The notes under the pieces were generated by a model, which did no database searches, had not been told where the DNA came from, and worked only from the letters and a program-made list of their open reading frames with translations. From NCBI RefSeq assembly GCF_900111165.1, contig NZ_FOGH01000009.1, positions 1 to 64,000 on the forward strand: 64,000 nt of DNA, read 5' to 3'. A program made the position numbers and the translations under genes. This stretch comes from Nitrosomonas sp. Nm51 (GTDB lineage: Bacteria > Pseudomonadota > Gammaproteobacteria > Burkholderiales > Nitrosomonadaceae). Every line of letters starts with the position of its first letter. The first letter of the stretch is position 1. Below are positions 21,857 through 29,193 of the stretch, one piece after another.

Positions 21857-22573
21857 ATGCGACGTAAGACATTTCAACTTTGTATTTTATTGGTGACTGC
21901 AAAATTGTCAGTCAATCTGTTTGCAGAAAGTCATAATTCGTTATCGCAATATCAGGAAATACCACTTATTAAAAAAGCGGTTGAAGATTTTGTTTATAGT
22001 CATGCAAATAATTCCGCGGGTGATATTCAGGTCGAGGTCGGCCAGATTGACCAGCGGATTACATTGCCAAAATGTGAGAAACTTAATGTATTCATGCCGT
22101 CAGGTAGCCGATTATGGGGAAAAACGTCGGTAGGTGTGCGTTGCGATGGGCAAGTATCCTGGACAATTTATGTGCAGGCCGAGATCAGAATCATGGCGGA
22201 TGTATTGCATGTCACACAACCGCTGTCACGTGATCACACGATTAACTATGGTGACCTGGCGCTTCAAACTGTTAATCTGACACAAATCCCTGAAGGTGTG
22301 TTGACAGACTATTCCCAGGCTGTTGGTAAAATTGCAGTAACGAATCTGACAATGGGACAGCCTTTGCGACAAAGTATGCTGCGCTCACCTTATATAATAT
22401 TAAGAGGACAAAACGTAAAGCTAATGATTAATGGGCGCGGGTTCAGAGTCAGCTCAGAGGGGCATGCGTTATCAGACGCATCTGAAGGGCAGATTGTTCA
22501 AGTACGCAACCCGGCAGGCCGTATTATTAGCGGTCTGGCACGACATAACGCGATAGTGGAAGTGAATCCCTAA
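21857..22573 (+). CDS. flgA: Flagella basal body P-ring formation protein FlgA
   Basis: A periplasmic chaperone for P-ring assembly. The 238-residue precursor has a signal peptide at about residues 1-24. The C-terminal SAF/ChapFlgA domain is clear: DVLHVTQPLSRDHTINYGDL, MGQPLRQSMLRSPYIILRGQ, and the ending EGQIVQVRNPAGRIISGLAR. It is divergent from flgB, as is common. The anti-sigma factor gene flgM and chaperone gene flgN, which often follow flgA, are absent; an acyl carrier protein gene comes next instead. Confidence 0.95.
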   Translation: MRRKTFQLCILLVTAKLSVNLFAESHNSLSQYQEIPLIKKAVEDFVYSHANNSAGDIQVEVGQIDQRITLPKCEKLNVFMPSGSRLWGKTSVGVRCDGQVSWTIYVQAEIRIMADVLHVTQPLSRDHTINYGDLALQTVNLTQIPEGVLTDYSQAVGKIAVTNLTMGQPLRQSMLRSPYIILRGQNVKLMINGRGFRVSSEGHALSDASEGQIVQVRNPAGRIISGLARHNAIVEVNP

Positions 22574-22664: not shown

Positions 22665-22913
22665 ATGAGCCAAGACAAGGCGGTAACACTCGATCAACTG
22701 GAGTTGATTTTTCAAGATACGTTCACCGAGAATACTTATGCATTCTCGGTTAATACCACGCGTGATGATATTGAAGAGTGGGACAGCTTAAGCCATATCA
22801 GGCTGCTGACCGCTATTGAAGCTAATTTTGGCGTTCAGTTTGATCTGGATGAAATAGGCAATATGACCGATGTCGCCACTATTGTAAATCTTTTACATGA
22901 GAAATTAGTATAA
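22665..22913 (+). CDS. Acyl carrier protein (first of two in cluster)
   Basis: An 82-residue carrier protein. The Ser of EWDSLSHIRLL at about residue 41 is the expected 4'-phosphopantetheine attachment site, and helix II and III sequences (TAIEANFGVQFDLDEI, DVATIVNLLHEKL) fit the ACP fold. It is not the housekeeping AcpP, whose site reads DSLDTVEL. It lies 91 bases after flgA and 26 bases before the FkbH-like gene, and starts the seven-gene cluster. By analogy with FkbH systems it probably carries the activated acyl group made by the next enzyme. Confidence 0.9.
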   Translation: MSQDKAVTLDQLELIFQDTFTENTYAFSVNTTRDDIEEWDSLSHIRLLTAIEANFGVQFDLDEIGNMTDVATIVNLLHEKLV

Positions 22914-22939
22914 ATAATAATTGTCGAACAGAATTTTTC

Positions 22940-24835
22940 ATGTACGATCTTCCCTGGTTACTTGCTCCTCCCGACGACTTCAATGAGCGCTGCGCTCAGT
23001 TGAAGTACCATAAAACTCCCGCTGATGAAGTGCATGCATTAGCGAAATATGCCTTATCTATAAACCAATCCAATCGTTTATATCAGGCCATACGTAAGCT
23101 GAATGCTAATACCCGTTCATTATTAGCTCATACGCTGACACCATTCAAATTAGGCATAGTCAGTAATGCTACTATGGATTTGATGATTCCATCTTTCGTG
23201 ATGGCGGCAATACGGAATGGCGTGGATCTTGAGTTGATAACCACAGATTTTGGGCAAGTGGCACAAGAGGCATTTGATCCTGATTCAAAACTTAATCAAT
23301 CGAAACCGGACGCAGTTTTGGTAGCATTGGATTATCGTGCCTATCCGTTCTTTGGTGATCAATCAGTCGCTTCAGTTCAAATTACACCAAGTGAAAAGGC
23401 GCTTAATTACTTGCAGCAAATCAGAGAATCATTCAAACAAAAGGGCGGCATGATTTGCATTGTGCAAACGCTTGCATGTCCTCCTTATGAATTCAGCGGG
23501 AATTTTGATGTGCAACTTGATGGCATATTACGTAAATCTCTTACCGAATTTAACCGCGCACTGGTCGACGATATTAAAAACAGTCCAGATGTGTTGCTGG
23601 ACGTTGCGGCTATAGTCAATATGGTTGGCGCATGCCATTGGTTCGATGATAGACAATGGTATTTATCCAGGGTACCCATGGCGAATACTTATGTGCCGCT
23701 GTATGCTGAGTATTTGACTAAACTGATTGCTGCGTTACGTGGGAAAAGTAAAAAATGTCTGGTTTTAGATCTTGACAATACTTTGTGGGGCGGAGTGATT
23801 GGGGATGATGGTTTGGAGGGAATTCAGATTGGTCAGGGACATCCGGTTGGTGAGTCGTTTTTAGCGGTACAGCAGTGGGCTAAGACGTTAAAAGATCTGG
23901 GTGTTCTATTGGCGGTATGTTCGAAAAATGATAAGGATATAGCATCAGAGGCGTTTCAGAGACACTCAGGCATGTTATTGAAAAAAAATGATTTTGCTGT
24001 TTTTGTCGCAAACTGGGAAGATAAGGCGTCTAACATCCGGTATATAGCAGAAACATTGAATATCGGTCTGGATGCAATAGTTTTTGTTGACGATAACCCT
24101 GCGGAGCGTGAAATTATCCGGACAATGCTGCCCGAAATAAGTGTGCCCGAACTGCCTAAGGACCCATCGCAATTTTTGCGCATACTCTGTGCAGCGCGCT
24201 ACTTTGAAAAAATCGATTTTACCGATGATGATGCGCAGCGCAATGCACAGTATTCAAGTAACGTCCGGCGTCAGGAAATACAGAAATCCGCTGCCAGTTT
24301 GGACGATTATCTGGTTTCACTTGAAATGCATATCAGTTTTGCACCATTTGATGAATTTGGACGCAAGCGCATCGTACAGCTAATCAATAAAACCAATCAG
24401 TTTAATTTGACAACGCGGCGTTATACGGAAGCCGAAGTGTTACAATTTGAAAATAACGAACAATCTGTAACGCTTCAAGTGCATTTGCAGGATAAATTTG
24501 GTGATAACGGCATGATCAGTGTTCTAATTTGCAAAGTGTATAAAGATCGCTGGGAAATAGAGACCTGGTTGATGAGCTGCCGTGTCATAAAACGCAGAGT
24601 TGAAGATGCTGTCTGTGACGAGCTGGTAGCGCGTGCAAGAAAGAGTGGAGTGAGTAGGCTGCGTGGATTTTATCGACCGACTGAAAAGAATGGTCTGGTC
24701 AAAGAACATTATCGGCGGCTCGGGTTCGAGTGTGTTGGTTCGAGTGACACTGAAGATGTCTGGGATTTGGTCGTTGATCGTTATCAAATAAAAAATCCAC
24801 CTATTAAAGTTACAAAGTCGTCTGTGACTGCATGA
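22940..24835 (+). CDS. FkbH-like HAD-IIIC phosphatase / acyltransferase
   Basis: A 631-residue multidomain enzyme of the FkbH family. An N-terminal SGNH-like region spans about residues 50-265. The HAD domain starts at about 272 with CLVLDLDNTLWGGVIGDDG, which holds the nucleophile and acid/base Asp, and continues through AVCSKNDKD and IVFVDDNPAERE. A GNAT-like C-terminus follows (FGDNGMISVLICKVYKDRWE, ARKSGVSRLRGFYRPTEKNG, then LVKEHYRRLGF). Characterised FkbH proteins take 1,3-bisphosphoglycerate, remove phosphate and load glyceryl onto an ACP. The ACP gene directly upstream supports a similar reaction here, but the substrate is not proven. Confidence 0.9.
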   Translation: MYDLPWLLAPPDDFNERCAQLKYHKTPADEVHALAKYALSINQSNRLYQAIRKLNANTRSLLAHTLTPFKLGIVSNATMDLMIPSFVMAAIRNGVDLELITTDFGQVAQEAFDPDSKLNQSKPDAVLVALDYRAYPFFGDQSVASVQITPSEKALNYLQQIRESFKQKGGMICIVQTLACPPYEFSGNFDVQLDGILRKSLTEFNRALVDDIKNSPDVLLDVAAIVNMVGACHWFDDRQWYLSRVPMANTYVPLYAEYLTKLIAALRGKSKKCLVLDLDNTLWGGVIGDDGLEGIQIGQGHPVGESFLAVQQWAKTLKDLGVLLAVCSKNDKDIASEAFQRHSGMLLKKNDFAVFVANWEDKASNIRYIAETLNIGLDAIVFVDDNPAEREIIRTMLPEISVPELPKDPSQFLRILCAARYFEKIDFTDDDAQRNAQYSSNVRRQEIQKSAASLDDYLVSLEMHISFAPFDEFGRKRIVQLINKTNQFNLTTRRYTEAEVLQFENNEQSVTLQVHLQDKFGDNGMISVLICKVYKDRWEIETWLMSCRVIKRRVEDAVCDELVARARKSGVSRLRGFYRPTEKNGLVKEHYRRLGFECVGSSDTEDVWDLVVDRYQIKNPPIKVTKSSVTA

Positions 24836-24847
24836 CTTTTCATAAAA

Positions 24848-26308
24848 ATGACGAATTGGAATAGAATAGGCGCGTTTCAAATTGATCAGAAGACAAGCTG
24901 CCAATTCGCGCAGGCGTCGGGCGATTATAATCCTTTGCATGTTGATCCTGTACTCGCAAGACGCTACCAGTTTGGAACCACTGTGATGCATGGTGTCTGC
25001 GGTGTTCTTAAGGCACTAGATTGCCTATTCAAGAATTTTGATAACGCTCAATCAATCAATTCGATCAGGGTACAGTTTGTACGGCCGGTTCTGCATGGCG
25101 AGTGTGTCGATGTTTTCAGTCAACAATCCGCTGGGCAAGACTTAAAGCTGAGACTGCTAGTCCAGGGGCGCCGTGTTCAGGACATCGATCTGAAATTAAT
25201 GAGACAATCTGACATAAAACCGGAAATGATTGACTATCAGCCAGTATCAACGGGAAAACCGCAACCTGAAAATTTACAGTTTGAAAATACTGATGATTTG
25301 GAAGGTACGCTGGACTTGGTCTGGATGCCTGATGTTATTCAAGAATTATTTCCATATATAAAAAAATATCTACCGGATAATCAGACTGCGGTATTGCTGG
25401 GTTTGACTCAAATTGTTGGCATGCGCTGTCCGGGACTGCATTCTGTTTTTACTGGGCTGGCTATTCGTTTCGAACAAAAAGCGGCCGCCGGTAATGCAAA
25501 AATGCAATTTAAAGTATTGCATCGCGACAACCGTTTTTCACTGGTAACGATCAGTATAACGCATAATACGGCAAGCGGTGAAATTACCGCGCTATTTCGG
25601 CCCGAGCCTGTATCTCAGGAGAGGTATGCTGAATTACAGGGTACTGTAACTAAAAACCGATTTGCAGATCAGAAGGCACTGATCATTGGTGGTTCGCGTG
25701 GAATTGGTGAGGTGACAGCCAAATTAATAGCGGCAGGTGGCGGTCATTCTGTGATTACATATTATCAGGGAGAACAGGATGCGCAAAAGATCGCCCGCGA
25801 TATCCGCTCACACGGTGGGCGCTGCGATGTTCTATCGTATAATGTCTTGTCTGAATCTGAAACCGGCATTACAAACCGTATTTCAAAAGAACGTTTTTCA
25901 CATATTTATTATTTTGCGTCCCCTTTGATCGAGAAGGGGGAAGGATTAGTGTGGGACGACACGGTGTTTCAGAAATTTTGTCATTATTACCTGAAAGGTT
26001 TTGCGGCGCTGATTGAAAAGTTTTTAAGCGATGCGGTATACAGGAAGCATTCAATGACTGTATTTGTTCCATCGACGGTTTTCTTGGAGCAACCGCAGAA
26101 AGGTTTTGCTGAGTATATTGCGGCTAAAGCAGCTGTAGAAGCTTTTGTTCGGCAATTATCCGCTAAATATCCCGGCTGGACGTTTCATGTACCCAGATTA
26201 CCTAGAATGCTGACCGATCAGACCAGCGGTTTAAATGTAAAGTGGACGCAAACAACAGCCGCAACGATGCTGGATATACTGATGTCGATGAGCGCTACAC
26301 CCAATTGA
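24848..26308 (+). CDS. MaoC-like hydratase fused to short-chain dehydrogenase
   Basis: A 486-residue fusion. Residues about 1-130 form a hotdog MaoC/R-hydratase domain with FAQASGDYNPLHVDP, where Asp26 and His31 are the expected catalytic pair. A second hotdog-like stretch spans about 140-265. The C-terminal part is an SDR reductase with GGSRGIGEVTAKLI (about 278-291) for NAD(P)H and YIAAK (Tyr422, Lys426) as the catalytic Tyr-x3-Lys. This would reduce a beta-keto acyl group and dehydrate or hydrate it, most likely on one of the cluster's carrier proteins. It starts 12 bases past the FkbH-like gene. The fusion is unusual and its product is unknown. Confidence 0.85.
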   Translation: MTNWNRIGAFQIDQKTSCQFAQASGDYNPLHVDPVLARRYQFGTTVMHGVCGVLKALDCLFKNFDNAQSINSIRVQFVRPVLHGECVDVFSQQSAGQDLKLRLLVQGRRVQDIDLKLMRQSDIKPEMIDYQPVSTGKPQPENLQFENTDDLEGTLDLVWMPDVIQELFPYIKKYLPDNQTAVLLGLTQIVGMRCPGLHSVFTGLAIRFEQKAAAGNAKMQFKVLHRDNRFSLVTISITHNTASGEITALFRPEPVSQERYAELQGTVTKNRFADQKALIIGGSRGIGEVTAKLIAAGGGHSVITYYQGEQDAQKIARDIRSHGGRCDVLSYNVLSESETGITNRISKERFSHIYYFASPLIEKGEGLVWDDTVFQKFCHYYLKGFAALIEKFLSDAVYRKHSMTVFVPSTVFLEQPQKGFAEYIAAKAAVEAFVRQLSAKYPGWTFHVPRLPRMLTDQTSGLNVKWTQTTAATMLDILMSMSATPN

Positions 26309-26309
26309 T

Positions 26310-27197
26310 ATGTCAAATAATTTAAGAGTCCATTCTTCTGTTAACGCAACGGTTTTAACTGCAATTTGCAAAGATGATCTCGATGAAGTGGCGCTTTTTT
26401 TGCATCACCATATGAATAATCGCTTTACACAGTCCGAATGGAAGCAGGGCATCAGCCAATCCTGGATGCCCGATGTGCCAAATTACGGCTACATGCTGAA
26501 AAACGATGTGCAGATAGTGGGTGTCTTATGCGCTATTTACTCCGAGCAATTGATTGCCGGTGGTTTGAAACGGTTTTGTAACCCACACAGCTGGTGTGTG
26601 CTTGCTGATTTTCGCAAGCGCAGTATAGAGCTGGTACTGGCTCTGATACGCCAGAAGAGTTACATATTTACTATGTTTTCACCGAATAAGGATGGCCTTG
26701 AAATATTCAGGTATTTAAAATTTCAACCTTTGGATAACCGCGTTTTGATACTGTTGAATATACCATCTATATATGGATCCGGAAAAGTTATCGAACTTCG
26801 GGACAAGCAGCAGGTTAAGCTGCTCTTGCCAGAAACCGCTGTACAGCATTATCTGGATCATATTCATTTTCCATGGCTCAACTTTCTGTTTTTCAGAAAT
26901 AATGATAAATATGGTTTTTTTATTTATAAACGACACCGTTATAAAAGATTAGCCAGCGCATGGATTATGTATATCAGCGATGCTGTGTTATTTCGTCAGT
27001 GCTGGCCGGCCATCAGGACAAGTCTGCTGCTCGAGCATGGGTTGTTTACCAGTAAAATTGAAGCACGATTTTTGGATCAACCAATGAAAACATGGTTTGA
27101 ACCGGAACAAGGGGCTCAGAAGTTTTATTTGAGCGATGAAATATCAGCTGGCCATATTCAAAATTTATATAGCGAACTGGTTGCGTTGGATTTATAA
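26310..27197 (+). CDS. GNAT-like acyltransferase, unassigned substrate
   Basis: A 295-residue protein with one base between its ATG and the stop of the MaoC-SDR gene. The first half resembles a GNAT N-acyltransferase fold: YGYMLKNDVQIVGVLCAIYS on the strand that usually binds acyl-CoA, a helix AIVLALIRQ-type region (IELVLALIRQKSYIF), and FSPNKDGLEIFRYLKFQPL. The second half is less clear. No classic Q/RxxGxG/A acetyl-CoA loop is obvious, so the call is by overall shape and context. It may transfer the ACP-bound group made by its neighbours to a sugar or protein. Confidence 0.55.
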   Translation: MSNNLRVHSSVNATVLTAICKDDLDEVALFLHHHMNNRFTQSEWKQGISQSWMPDVPNYGYMLKNDVQIVGVLCAIYSEQLIAGGLKRFCNPHSWCVLADFRKRSIELVLALIRQKSYIFTMFSPNKDGLEIFRYLKFQPLDNRVLILLNIPSIYGSGKVIELRDKQQVKLLLPETAVQHYLDHIHFPWLNFLFFRNNDKYGFFIYKRHRYKRLASAWIMYISDAVLFRQCWPAIRTSLLLEHGLFTSKIEARFLDQPMKTWFEPEQGAQKFYLSDEISAGHIQNLYSELVALDL

Positions 27198-27230
27198 AAT
27201 TTTTGTTTAGTTTTAAGTGGAACAGGGTAA

Positions 27231-27476
27231 ATGAAACTGGAAAATGAAATAATCAACATCGTGCGCGACGTGCTGGTCCTCGGTGATCGTGCAGATAAAT
27301 TTAATACAACGACAGCATTGATGGGCGATATTCCTGAATTTGATTCTATGTCTGTGGTTGCGATTATAACAGCGCTGGAAGATGAGTATGACTGTGTTTT
27401 TGAAGATGATGAAATCACTGCTGATGTATTCAAAACAATTGGCAGTTTGACGCAACTGGTGGAATCGAAGCTCTAA
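27231..27476 (+). CDS. Acyl carrier protein (second in cluster)
   Basis: An 81-residue carrier protein with the phosphopantetheine Ser in PEFDSMSVVAII (about residue 40) and an acidic C-terminal half. It differs from the first ACP, with DSM instead of DSL, so the two probably carry different intermediates or face different partners. The EFDSMSVV motif resembles ACPs found next to exosortase-system acyl-CoA ligase genes. Its stop lies three bases before the hydrolase start. Confidence 0.88.
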   Translation: MKLENEIINIVRDVLVLGDRADKFNTTTALMGDIPEFDSMSVVAIITALEDEYDCVFEDDEITADVFKTIGSLTQLVESKL

Positions 27477-27479
27477 GTC

Positions 27480-28313
27480 ATGCTTGCGCAATCCAGAATT
27501 GAAGTTGACTTTATTCAGGGTGGTGCCGGGAAACTGTTCGCCTTGCACTACGCGCCTGAAAGTATCACTGACGAGACGGAATGTATTGTTGCTGCCGCAT
27601 CATTTGCAGAAGAAATGAATCGATGCCGTTATATGTGCACACTGTTCGCGCAACAGGTATCACAGTTTAATTACGGTTTCTTATCGGTAGATACTTATGG
27701 TACAGGCGACAGCGAAGGTGAATTCAAAGATTCGAACTGGGAACAAGGCTGTCAGGATTTGCTGGCGGCAATTACGTATGCCGGCACATTGGGCTATCAG
27801 AAAATTTCTATTCTGGGAGTGCGGCTTGGTGCATTGCAAGCCGTGCAAATTGCTGGCGCGATTAAGTGCTTACAGCGTTTGATATTCTGGCAACCTGTTA
27901 TTAACGGACAGGCTGCGTTAACGCAGTTTCTTCGCATCAGAATTGCTGCATCCATGCAGCGTGGAGAACAACAGGAAACTGTTCAGGATTTGGAAAATCA
28001 GATTAACAATGGTCAACATATTAGCGTATCAGGTTATGATGTCGGGCCCGATCTTTTTAAGGGGATCAAAGCTGCAAAATTCAATTCATTTGTTAATTCA
28101 CTTGTTGTTCCTGTTGGCTGGTTTACTGTAATTACCAGTGCAGACAGAAAAACACCACGGGGTGATATGATGATGATCGAAAAGTGGCGCGAAAGAGGTG
28201 CCAGGATTGATCATCAGGAAGTTATCGGCCCGCCATTCTGGCTTGCGCACGAGCGCACGCTGGTTCCAGAACTCGTTGAAGCTACAGTACGTTATGTTAC
28301 TCAGTCATACTGA
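27480..28313 (+). CDS. Alpha/beta hydrolase, exosortase A system-associated hydrolase 2 type
   Basis: A 277-residue alpha/beta hydrolase. The segments FAEEMNRCRYMCTLFAQQV and LSVDTYGTGDSEGEFKDSNW match the hydrolase-2 protein encoded beside exosortase A (EpsH) loci. The usual nucleophile-elbow position reads GVRLGALQA, with Arg where Ser is expected, so it may act differently from a serine esterase or be a chain-release or thioesterase-like partner. The ACP gene directly upstream supports an ACP-related role. No exosortase or PEP-CTERM protein gene is in this window. Confidence 0.82.
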   Translation: MLAQSRIEVDFIQGGAGKLFALHYAPESITDETECIVAAASFAEEMNRCRYMCTLFAQQVSQFNYGFLSVDTYGTGDSEGEFKDSNWEQGCQDLLAAITYAGTLGYQKISILGVRLGALQAVQIAGAIKCLQRLIFWQPVINGQAALTQFLRIRIAASMQRGEQQETVQDLENQINNGQHISVSGYDVGPDLFKGIKAAKFNSFVNSLVVPVGWFTVITSADRKTPRGDMMMIEKWRERGARIDHQEVIGPPFWLAHERTLVPELVEATVRYVTQSY

Positions 28314-29193
28314 AATTCCGGTCGTTTTCCCGTGTAATAACGATTCGCTGGTTGGCGTTATCAGTAAACCAGAGAATTCAAGCAGGATTGGCGTGGTAAT
28401 CGTGGTTGCTGGCGGACCGCAATATCGTGTTGGTGCACACAGACAGTTCGTAACACTGGCCAGACTGCTTGCCAGTCATGCCATAGCGTCTATTCGTTTT
28501 GATCATCGTGGCACGGGTGATAGTACTGGAAACCTGCGTGGTTTTGTCGACATGAATGCAGATATACAAAGTGCGGCTGATACTTTGCTCAGCCGAGTGC
28601 CAGAAGTTGAAAAAATTGTCTTGTGGGGAGAATGTGAATCGGCAACCGCCAGCGCGTTCTACAGTTACTTGGATCCACGTATTCAGGGTATTTTTATGGT
28701 AAATCCATGGATTAGAACTGAAGCGGGATTGGCTAAGACCATGATCAGGCATTATTACTGGCGTCGATTGCTTGAGAAGTCATTCTGGACTAAAGTAATG
28801 TCTGGAAATTTTTCACTAACAGCATCGCTGAAATCATGCATGAAAATGATTAAGTCGACCTGGGCGCGCTCAGGTGGAAAAGCCGATTCTGTTTTCAATG
28901 ATACCTTAGACACATTGCCTTTACCTGAACGGCTGGCGCAAAGTTGCCAGCGGTTTTCTGGTGAGATGTTTATTCTGACAAGCGGATGGGATTATATAGC
29001 AAGGGAGTTCAACGATTATGTTAAATCTTCCAAAATTTGGCAGGAATTAACCGTTTCCGGATGTGTGACGCTGAAAGATATCCCTGAAGCTGATCACACT
29101 TTTTCCCGGCCGGAATGGCGCAAGCAATTATTTGATTATACGATAAACTGGTTAAAACGCATTGAGTCAATTCAAAAAGATACGTCACAATAA
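28294..29193 (+). CDS. Alpha/beta hydrolase, exosortase A system-associated hydrolase 1 type
   Basis: A 299-residue alpha/beta hydrolase starting at the ATG at 28294, overlapping the previous hydrolase by 20 bases. A longer frame from 28198 lies inside that gene and was rejected. The VVAGGPQYRVGAHRQFVTLA and IRFDHRGTGDSTGN segments are diagnostic of the exosortase-linked hydrolase 1. The nucleophile elbow reads LWGECESATAS, with Cys or Glu in place of the usual G-x-S-x-G Ser. EADHTFSRPEW carries the likely catalytic His. It closes the seven-gene ACP cluster. Both hydrolases have non-standard elbows, which is worth noting. Confidence 0.82.
   Translation: MLLSHTEIPVVFPCNNDSLVGVISKPENSSRIGVVIVVAGGPQYRVGAHRQFVTLARLLASHAIASIRFDHRGTGDSTGNLRGFVDMNADIQSAADTLLSRVPEVEKIVLWGECESATASAFYSYLDPRIQGIFMVNPWIRTEAGLAKTMIRHYYWRRLLEKSFWTKVMSGNFSLTASLKSCMKMIKSTWARSGGKADSVFNDTLDTLPLPERLAQSCQRFSGEMFILTSGWDYIAREFNDYVKSSKIWQELTVSGCVTLKDIPEADHTFSRPEWRKQLFDYTINWLKRIESIQKDTSQ

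Follow-up and report, generated by a model that had tools for sequence, protein, structure and literature searches.

The window analysed here, 64,000 nucleotides of Nitrosomonas sp. Nm51 (contig NZ_FOGH01000009.1, positions 1 to 64,000), contains a compact run of seven open reading frames on the plus strand (22665-29193) that brings together an FkbH-type glyceryl loader, two acyl carrier proteins (ACPs), a GNAT-like acyltransferase and two hydrolases associated with the exosortase A (XrtA/PEP-CTERM) system. With moderate confidence, we take this operon to supply an ACP-bound short hydroxyacyl group, together with a GNAT acyltransferase, to the exosortase A exopolysaccharide system. This reading draws on observed gene content, order and conservation, on intact motifs and co-occurrence, and on physical linkage, which connects GNAT genes with carrier loaders and, in a single genome, with XrtA itself.

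In order, the run encodes ACP1, an FkbH-type carrier with a WDSL motif (22665..22913; PP-binding, 18.3 bits, below the Pfam cut-off of 20.8); the FkbH-type glyceryl loader, with FkbH_N, HAD IIIC and C-terminal domains (22940..24835; TIGR01686); a fusion of a MaoC (hotdog) dehydratase with a short-chain dehydrogenase (SDR) (24848..26308; PF01575 and PF00106, both above cut-off); the GNAT-like acyltransferase, a protein of 295 aa from an unnamed family (26310..27197; PF00583 matches among the members of its alignment); ACP2, a carrier of the exosortase A set with a DSM motif (27231..27476; PP-binding, a weak match at 22.1 bits, cut-off 20.8); and the exosortase A system-associated hydrolases 2 and 1, the former with Arg at the nucleophile position (27480..28313; TIGR03101, 219.2 bits, cut-off 202.75) and the latter with a Cys elbow (28294..29193; TIGR03100, 301.9 bits, cut-off 168.45). 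The gaps between the genes are 26, 12, 1, 33 and 3 bases, and the last two genes overlap by 20 bases; because of this overlap, the start of hydrolase 1 is most likely at 28294. The coordinates and family scans agree with the first-pass annotation, which had described seven tightly spaced plus-strand genes of these families.

The seven genes appear to form two joined modules, A (ACP1, FkbH, MaoC-SDR and GNAT) and B (ACP2, hydrolase 2 and hydrolase 1), the second of which, judging by family membership, is the usual XrtA set. The set is not a chance assembly, because the same order recurs behind flgA in four relatives (G009, G019, G020 and G073; G numbers denote genomes and L numbers loci throughout, G000 being the genome of the window). 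The ratio of nonsynonymous to synonymous polymorphism (pN/pS) is 0.07-0.24 across 14 gene pairs, indicating purifying selection, with six of the seven window genes (all except hydrolase 1) compared with G020 and with high synonymous divergence.

Enzymes and carriers of the two modules

The FkbH protein scores 316.6 bits against TIGR01686 (cut-off 146.65), contains an FkbH_N domain and matches PDB entry 3slr over residues 65-429 (E 1.7e-67). The HAD domain of such enzymes relies on a catalytic Asp pair and the thioester step on a Cys, and the MaoC and SDR domains have catalytic motif residues of their own. The motifs of module A are intact: Asp277, Asp279 and Cys547 of FkbH are invariant in 18 of 18 aligned homologs, and Asp26 and His31 of MaoC as well as Ser409, Tyr423 and Lys427 of the SDR are invariant in 9 of 9 aligned fusions. 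Both ACP1 and ACP2 contain the attachment Ser, which is invariant in all 18 aligned carriers, among which all nine FkbH-linked ones share the WDSL motif. Passages of PMC8949500 and PMC7489565 describe the FkbH family as loading a glyceryl group from 1,3-bisphosphoglycerate on a carrier. Module A should yield glyceryl-ACP and perhaps lactyl-ACP.

FkbH, ACP and MaoC-SDR recur together, with MaoC-SDR proteins 36-38% identical to that of the window in Acetobacteraceae (L021, the single locus found when the contigs of named genomes were searched) and in G071 and G047. In bryostatin biosynthesis, FkbH, a dehydratase and a reductase reportedly produce a lactyl starter, a precedent that our literature searches did not confirm. 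A methoxymalonyl extender pathway, in which two dehydrogenases and an O-methyltransferase accompany FkbH, was considered and rejected: the operon encodes neither an O-methyltransferase nor a polyketide synthase, and Pfam and NCBIfam scans of the seven proteins found no methyltransferase match.

In module B, ACP2 belongs with the hydrolases, given that carriers 43-94% identical to it adjoin hydrolases 2 and 1 at other loci. Hydrolase 1, whose elbow Cys in the window is Cys114, has a G-x-C elbow in all 43 aligned rows (43 of the 50 over-cut-off matches), with H268 and D233 conserved at a level of at least 90%, and is accordingly a candidate Cys enzyme by its motif. In hydrolase 2, Arg occupies the nucleophile position in every one of the 43 rows (39 with G-x-R, 4 with A-x-R), and none of the positions conserved at 90% in these rows is a His; this protein is probably a non-catalytic partner. 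The unusual elbows had been taken as a hint of a special role in chain release or carrier editing; in the alignments they are old traits of the two families, so we reject a special chain-release role deduced from the elbows. In three XrtA sets, the ACP2-hydrolase 2-hydrolase 1 trio is preceded by a gene of another family, p246 (235-252 aa; L061:12517-13257, L063:5846-6577 and L085:9784-10542), with a YQEDEVR motif invariant in four aligned members, no Pfam or NCBIfam match in the scanned members and no relation to the GNAT profile.

The GNAT-like family and its carrier-loading neighbors

The 295-aa protein has no Pfam match and no NCBIfam match at E values up to 0.1, and its alignment has no PDB match at E values up to 1. 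We call it GNAT-like because 4 of the 13 members of its alignment match Acetyltransf_1 (PF00583; best E 9.1e-5). By the same NCBIfam result it does not match TIGR03019, the VimA-like PEP-CTERM FemAB family; in the window's genome, the XrtA locus encodes FemAB separately.

Relatives of this protein are found in 19 genomes, namely, 13 of 125 from the family of the window's genome, four further in a sample of the order and two further in a sample of the class (6 of 399 and 4 of 369 genomes, respectively, two of which had been counted already in each case; GNAT alignment A1, the first, served for the order and a wider one, A2, for the class, so that distant copies in the order may be missed). In 16 of the 19, the GNAT gene shares its gene run with a carrier loader, which is either intact or a relic. 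Eight genomes have intact FkbH and a carrier beside it (G000, G009, G019, G020, G071, G073, G075 and G814, the last of these from another family of the class, where FkbH, ACP and GNAT follow one another in tandem), and in G056 an FkbH relic accompanies a GNAT gene that is broken as well. In G057 and G060, GNAT has the AMP ligase TIGR03098 as a neighbor, together with ACP2 and both hydrolases. An E1-E2 pair with a carrier adjoins it in G047, G210, G250 and G320, divergently oriented from GNAT in the last three; the domains, scanned in G047 and G250, are E1_dh, transketolase, lipoyl and 2-oxoacid acyltransferase. In G221, the neighbor is a nonribosomal peptide synthetase (NRPS) module (C-A-PCP-TE), and the locus (L103:5417-10685) reads NRPS module, a gene for 123 aa and a distant GNAT relative. 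The genomes outside the 16 are G048, with pieces at contig ends, G061, with a short contig, and G603. The GNAT family thus appears to adjoin exchangeable carrier-loading machines: FkbH, AMP ligase, E1-E2 of the pyruvate dehydrogenase/transketolase kind and NRPS.

In the GNAT tree, the ligase pair G057/G060 branches with the FkbH group and is separate from the E1-E2 group, with the root placed by choice on G221 and with support of 34-80 at some inner nodes. G060 retains an FkbH relic next to an intact GNAT gene, which appears to have kept working after the loss of FkbH because it is under purifying selection (pN/pS 0.12 relative to G057).

The exchange goes both ways, and it is mainly for this reason that we assign the role of donor maker to FkbH-ACP and that of transferase to GNAT. 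FkbH-ACP adjoins an Antibiotic_NAT protein (aminoglycoside N-acetyltransferase-like) and a MaoC-SDR 38% identical to that of the window in G071, an arrangement that the second FkbH-ACP cassette of G047 repeats in its layout; a hexapeptide acyltransferase, WbqC and an aminotransferase in G093, with a similar layout by gene length in G097 and G098; and an MBOAT acyltransferase in G124. In G074, FkbH and ACP are followed by a separate MaoC gene and a gene that is SDR-like by similarity. The second FkbH-ACP/MaoC-SDR cassettes of G071 and G047 lie at L113:3358-8931 and L114:5338-10914, their FkbH and MaoC-SDR proteins are 31-38% identical to those of the window, and the G071 cassette also holds a polysaccharide deacetylase. 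Separately, in 11 of 23 genomes of a neighboring genus, an FkbH-domain protein that matches over residues ~260-600 only is encoded ~8 kb from exosortase A (L108:6279-8120 and L109:12373-14211; at these two loci, BLAST finds no carrier beside it).

Ties to the exosortase A system

The window's genome (3.24 Mb in 131 contigs, with the window on contig 58) encodes the exosortase A system on other contigs. Contig 73 carries exosortase A (TIGR03109, 350.1 bits, cut-off 208), the XrtA ATPase, the XrtA polysaccharide deacetylase, FemAB and the glycosyltransferase TIGR03088; contig 113 carries the XrtA ligase TIGR03098, the decarboxylase TIGR03099 and the regulator kinase PrsK; contig 77 carries the XrtA amidotransferase TIGR03108 (99156-101036). 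The genome further contains stp2 and 14 PEP-CTERM matches at E values up to 0.01. In G057, G060 and G093, TIGR03108 is the next gene after the stp2 glycosyltransferase, and similarity points to the same arrangement in three genomes of another genus. Hydrolases of exosortase A systems are usually adjacent to the ligase and decarboxylase; those of the window are not. The first-pass annotation had noted that exosortase, ligase and PEP-CTERM genes are absent, which is the case for contig 58, where the scans found no match to any of them, and not for the genome.

Exosortase A is present in 50 of the 125 family genomes, counted as exosortase matches with an open frame of ~520 aa (G108 and G033 from partial or split pieces). 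Hydrolase 1 exceeds its cut-off in 47 of the 125, and 46 of these have exosortase A, the exception being G002; the reverse exceptions are G017, G061, G077 and G108, three of which are 75-80% complete. The amidotransferase TIGR03108 follows the same pattern (50 genomes over cut-off, 49 with exosortase A). The ligase TIGR03098 is not specific to exosortase A because it is spread far more widely (104/125). Among the 13 family genomes with GNAT, 12 have exosortase A. The exception, G056 (91% complete), contains decayed pieces of the cluster behind flgA (L064:134-2060) and, near a contig end, a fragment of exosortase A (residues 188-243 in two frames; L097:6594-6763), which fits joint loss of cluster and exosortase, a fragmentary assembly being possible as well. 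The cluster had been viewed as independent of exosortase genes, to be abandoned as a system of its own if it always stood next to a complete exosortase locus: it does not stand there in the window's genome, and the independence does not hold, given that the genes are tied to the system genome-wide.

The link to the XrtA locus itself comes from G047, where a run of genes on one strand encodes the ATPase, deacetylase, FemAB, a 398-aa protein, XrtA, stp2, E1, E2, ACP and GNAT (the contig end truncates the GNAT gene; the first three are named by 72-76% identity to the G000 genes). Exosortases were further sought in four GNAT genomes from outside the family, G210, G250, G320 and G221. The first three, which form the E1-E2 genus, all have exosortase A-like loci (38-40% identity to the one in G047) that include relatives of FemAB, the deacetylase and the amidotransferase.

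The chemistry that we predict, including the acyl group, the acceptor and the roles of the hydrolases, would proceed as follows. FkbH would load a glyceryl group from 1,3-bisphosphoglycerate on ACP1; MaoC-SDR would remove the 3-hydroxyl, producing an enol-pyruvyl and then pyruvyl-ACP, and would probably reduce the 2-keto group, giving lactyl-ACP. From the carrier, GNAT would pass the acyl group on to an amine, the likeliest being that of an amino sugar which the XrtA polysaccharide deacetylase has freed; of the whole mechanism, this acceptor is the weakest step. ACP2 and the two hydrolases would act as the usual XrtA carrier set, with the ligase and decarboxylase encoded elsewhere in the genome, hydrolase 1 using its Cys for acyl transfer or editing and hydrolase 2 serving as its non-catalytic partner. 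The part of the first-pass annotation that has FkbH and ACP making a small C3 acyl group to be placed on a glycan survives as the best reading of module A.

A bolder and distinctly tentative extension is that the product is an exchangeable acyl tag, built on a dedicated carrier, on the sugar joined to PEP-CTERM proteins or on the exopolysaccharide by which they are held. FkbH would make it a glyceryl or lactyl tag, E1-E2 a glycolyl and the AMP ligase an aminoacyl one, the loader being swapped by lineage and the GNAT transferase family kept.

Several observations weigh against assigning the operon to the exosortase A system. The cluster is not adjacent to XrtA in the window's genome, and only 12 of the 50 exosortase A genomes of the family have GNAT, which makes it an accessory and not a core part of the system. 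The family co-occurrence counts and the Fisher values computed from them ignore shared descent, and outside G000 the separation of exosortase A from other exosortases relies on frame length and similarity instead of its own profile. G221, with GNAT beside the NRPS, has no exosortase match, and G603 has no carrier in its 5.5-kb GNAT contig. In G057 and G060, GNAT could be a leftover next to which the ligase arrived late. FkbH-ACP cassettes occur in sugar clusters that have no tie to XrtA. The lactyl step is read from domain content alone, and the FkbH-GNAT set of G071 has no adjacent MaoC-SDR. Finally, a single-sequence AlphaFold2 model of the 295-aa protein has a mean confidence (pLDDT) of 34.1 and gives no usable structure.

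FkbH, the XrtA hydrolases and the FkbH-ACP sugar cassettes are known kinds, and the apparently new part is their union with an exosortase A-associated GNAT; our searches of the open-access literature found no earlier report of FkbH, XrtA hydrolases and GNAT in one operon. Compared with the XrtA/PEP-CTERM system as usually composed (TIGR03098, TIGR03099, ACP, TIGR03100/03101), the window shares both hydrolases and the ACP2 kind of carrier, and the ligase, decarboxylase, XrtA, deacetylase, FemAB and stp2 are all in the same genome. Unlike in the usual set, the hydrolases share an operon with FkbH, MaoC-SDR and GNAT, with the ligase and decarboxylase on another contig.

XrtA, which we take to be distinct from PorU, invites comparison with the Wbp/Vim linking-sugar pathway of type IX secretion. 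Sections of PMC7468200 describe a deacetylase (VimE), an aminoacyl transferase (VimA) and an amidotransferase (WbpS) in that pathway, with the cargo amide-bonded to an N-acyl amino sugar, relate VimA to the XrtA FemAB family with Nitrosomonas eutropha among the organisms considered, and state that exosortase A cargo is joined to an unidentified compound, speculated to be an amino-acid-modified sugar. The likeness lies in sorted proteins on an N-acylated amino sugar produced by a deacetylase, an N-acyltransferase and an amidotransferase; in the window, by contrast, a carrier protein would act as donor, and the transferase would be of a different, GNAT-like family. The operon would thus add a carrier-bound acyl donor to the idea of an amino-acid-modified sugar. 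With a carrier-bound donor and a transferase both accompanying exosortase A, the attachment question would become directly testable, and a likely job would fall to one unnamed protein family as well as to two hydrolase families of which only the association with exosortases is known.

Other relatives are closer to single modules. The glycolicacyl-ACP set described for QncN/QncL/QncM and proposed for SclQ1-4 in passages of PMC6335953 combines an E1-type protein dependent on thiamine diphosphate, a lipoyl E2-type protein and an ACP, which, by description, resemble the GNAT neighbors in G047, G210, G250 and G320; such E1-E2 parts are not in the window. The Mad7/Mad8 and Mad14/Mad12 pairs, presented in part of PMC7489565 as performing FkbH/ACP glyceryl loading in polyketide pathways, share with the window an FkbH protein, a stand-alone ACP and 1,3-bisphosphoglycerate as the proposed source, whereas the neighbors in the window are MaoC-SDR and an acyltransferase rather than a polyketide synthase or O-methyltransferase. 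ACP-using N-acyl amino acid synthases of the FeeM type are linked to exosortase genes (as cited in a passage of PMC4897644); those described use fatty acyl chains, and the 295-aa protein of the window hits no named model. BtrI/J/K offer a possible comparison for the ligase-decarboxylase pair, and NodA/NodB may be a further one.

Alternative explanations and the site behind flgA

The alternative that survives best, although we consider it unlikely, is that the operon has nothing to do with exosortase A and is an ordinary acyl-sugar cassette serving O-antigen or capsule, with the co-occurrence reflecting descent within the genus. The related FkbH-ACP cassettes that contain WbqC, aminotransferase and acyltransferase genes are what it would predict, as is the scarcity of GNAT among exosortase A genomes. 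It does not account for the GNAT gene inside the XrtA run of G047, for the exosortase A-like locus in 3 of 3 GNAT genomes of another genus, or for ACP2 and both XrtA hydrolases within the operon.

Less probable again is the view that chance has placed a glyceryl/lactyl module (ACP1-FkbH-MaoC-SDR-GNAT) beside an unrelated XrtA hydrolase module. The modules are indeed separate in two genomes: in G075, the order is flgA-ACP1-FkbH-MaoC-SDR-GNAT, with hydrolases 2 and 1, the TIGR03099 decarboxylase and a carrier ~0.2 Mb off, and in G071, ACP1-FkbH-GNAT follows a transporter gene. Small gaps join them in five genomes, however, and GNAT lies near the hydrolase module in G057 and G060 too, with the ligase between.

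The gene upstream of the run (21857..22573, plus strand), outside the proposed system, is presumably flgA, a name that comes from the first-pass annotation and not from a family scan. The least probable alternative is that the cluster acylates a flagellar glycan or flagellin (the first-pass annotation had named a flagellar protein among the possible acceptors) and that its position is functional; the full set behind flgA in five genomes (G000, G009, G019, G020 and G073), the four genes in G075 and the relic in G056 speak for it, but in G047, G057, G060 and G071 the GNAT gene is not on the contig that carries flgA, family scans find no glycosyltransferase gene within the operon, and the exosortase A tie is stronger, which leaves the flagellar link weak. 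A flgA relative occurs in 12 of the 16 genomes searched, with varying genes downstream, and G048 has ACP1-FkbH at one contig end and an end of GNAT at another; flgA is a frequent, not a fixed, neighbor of the cluster.

Scans for regulatory signals gave 41 sigma-54 matches in the window (at most 2 mismatches) against 46.9 expected by chance, which is no excess, as well as 19 sigma-70 matches against 16.2 expected and 8 terminators against 5.8 expected, from which we derive no transcript boundary. The spot behind flgA seems to collect carrier-related genes, and two other cases, which the flagellar explanation may also claim, are a p246-like gene in G018 (L124:2252-2959) and an ACP2-like carrier, 47% identical, in G023 (L121:1076-1354), a genome without exosortase A by the frame cut.

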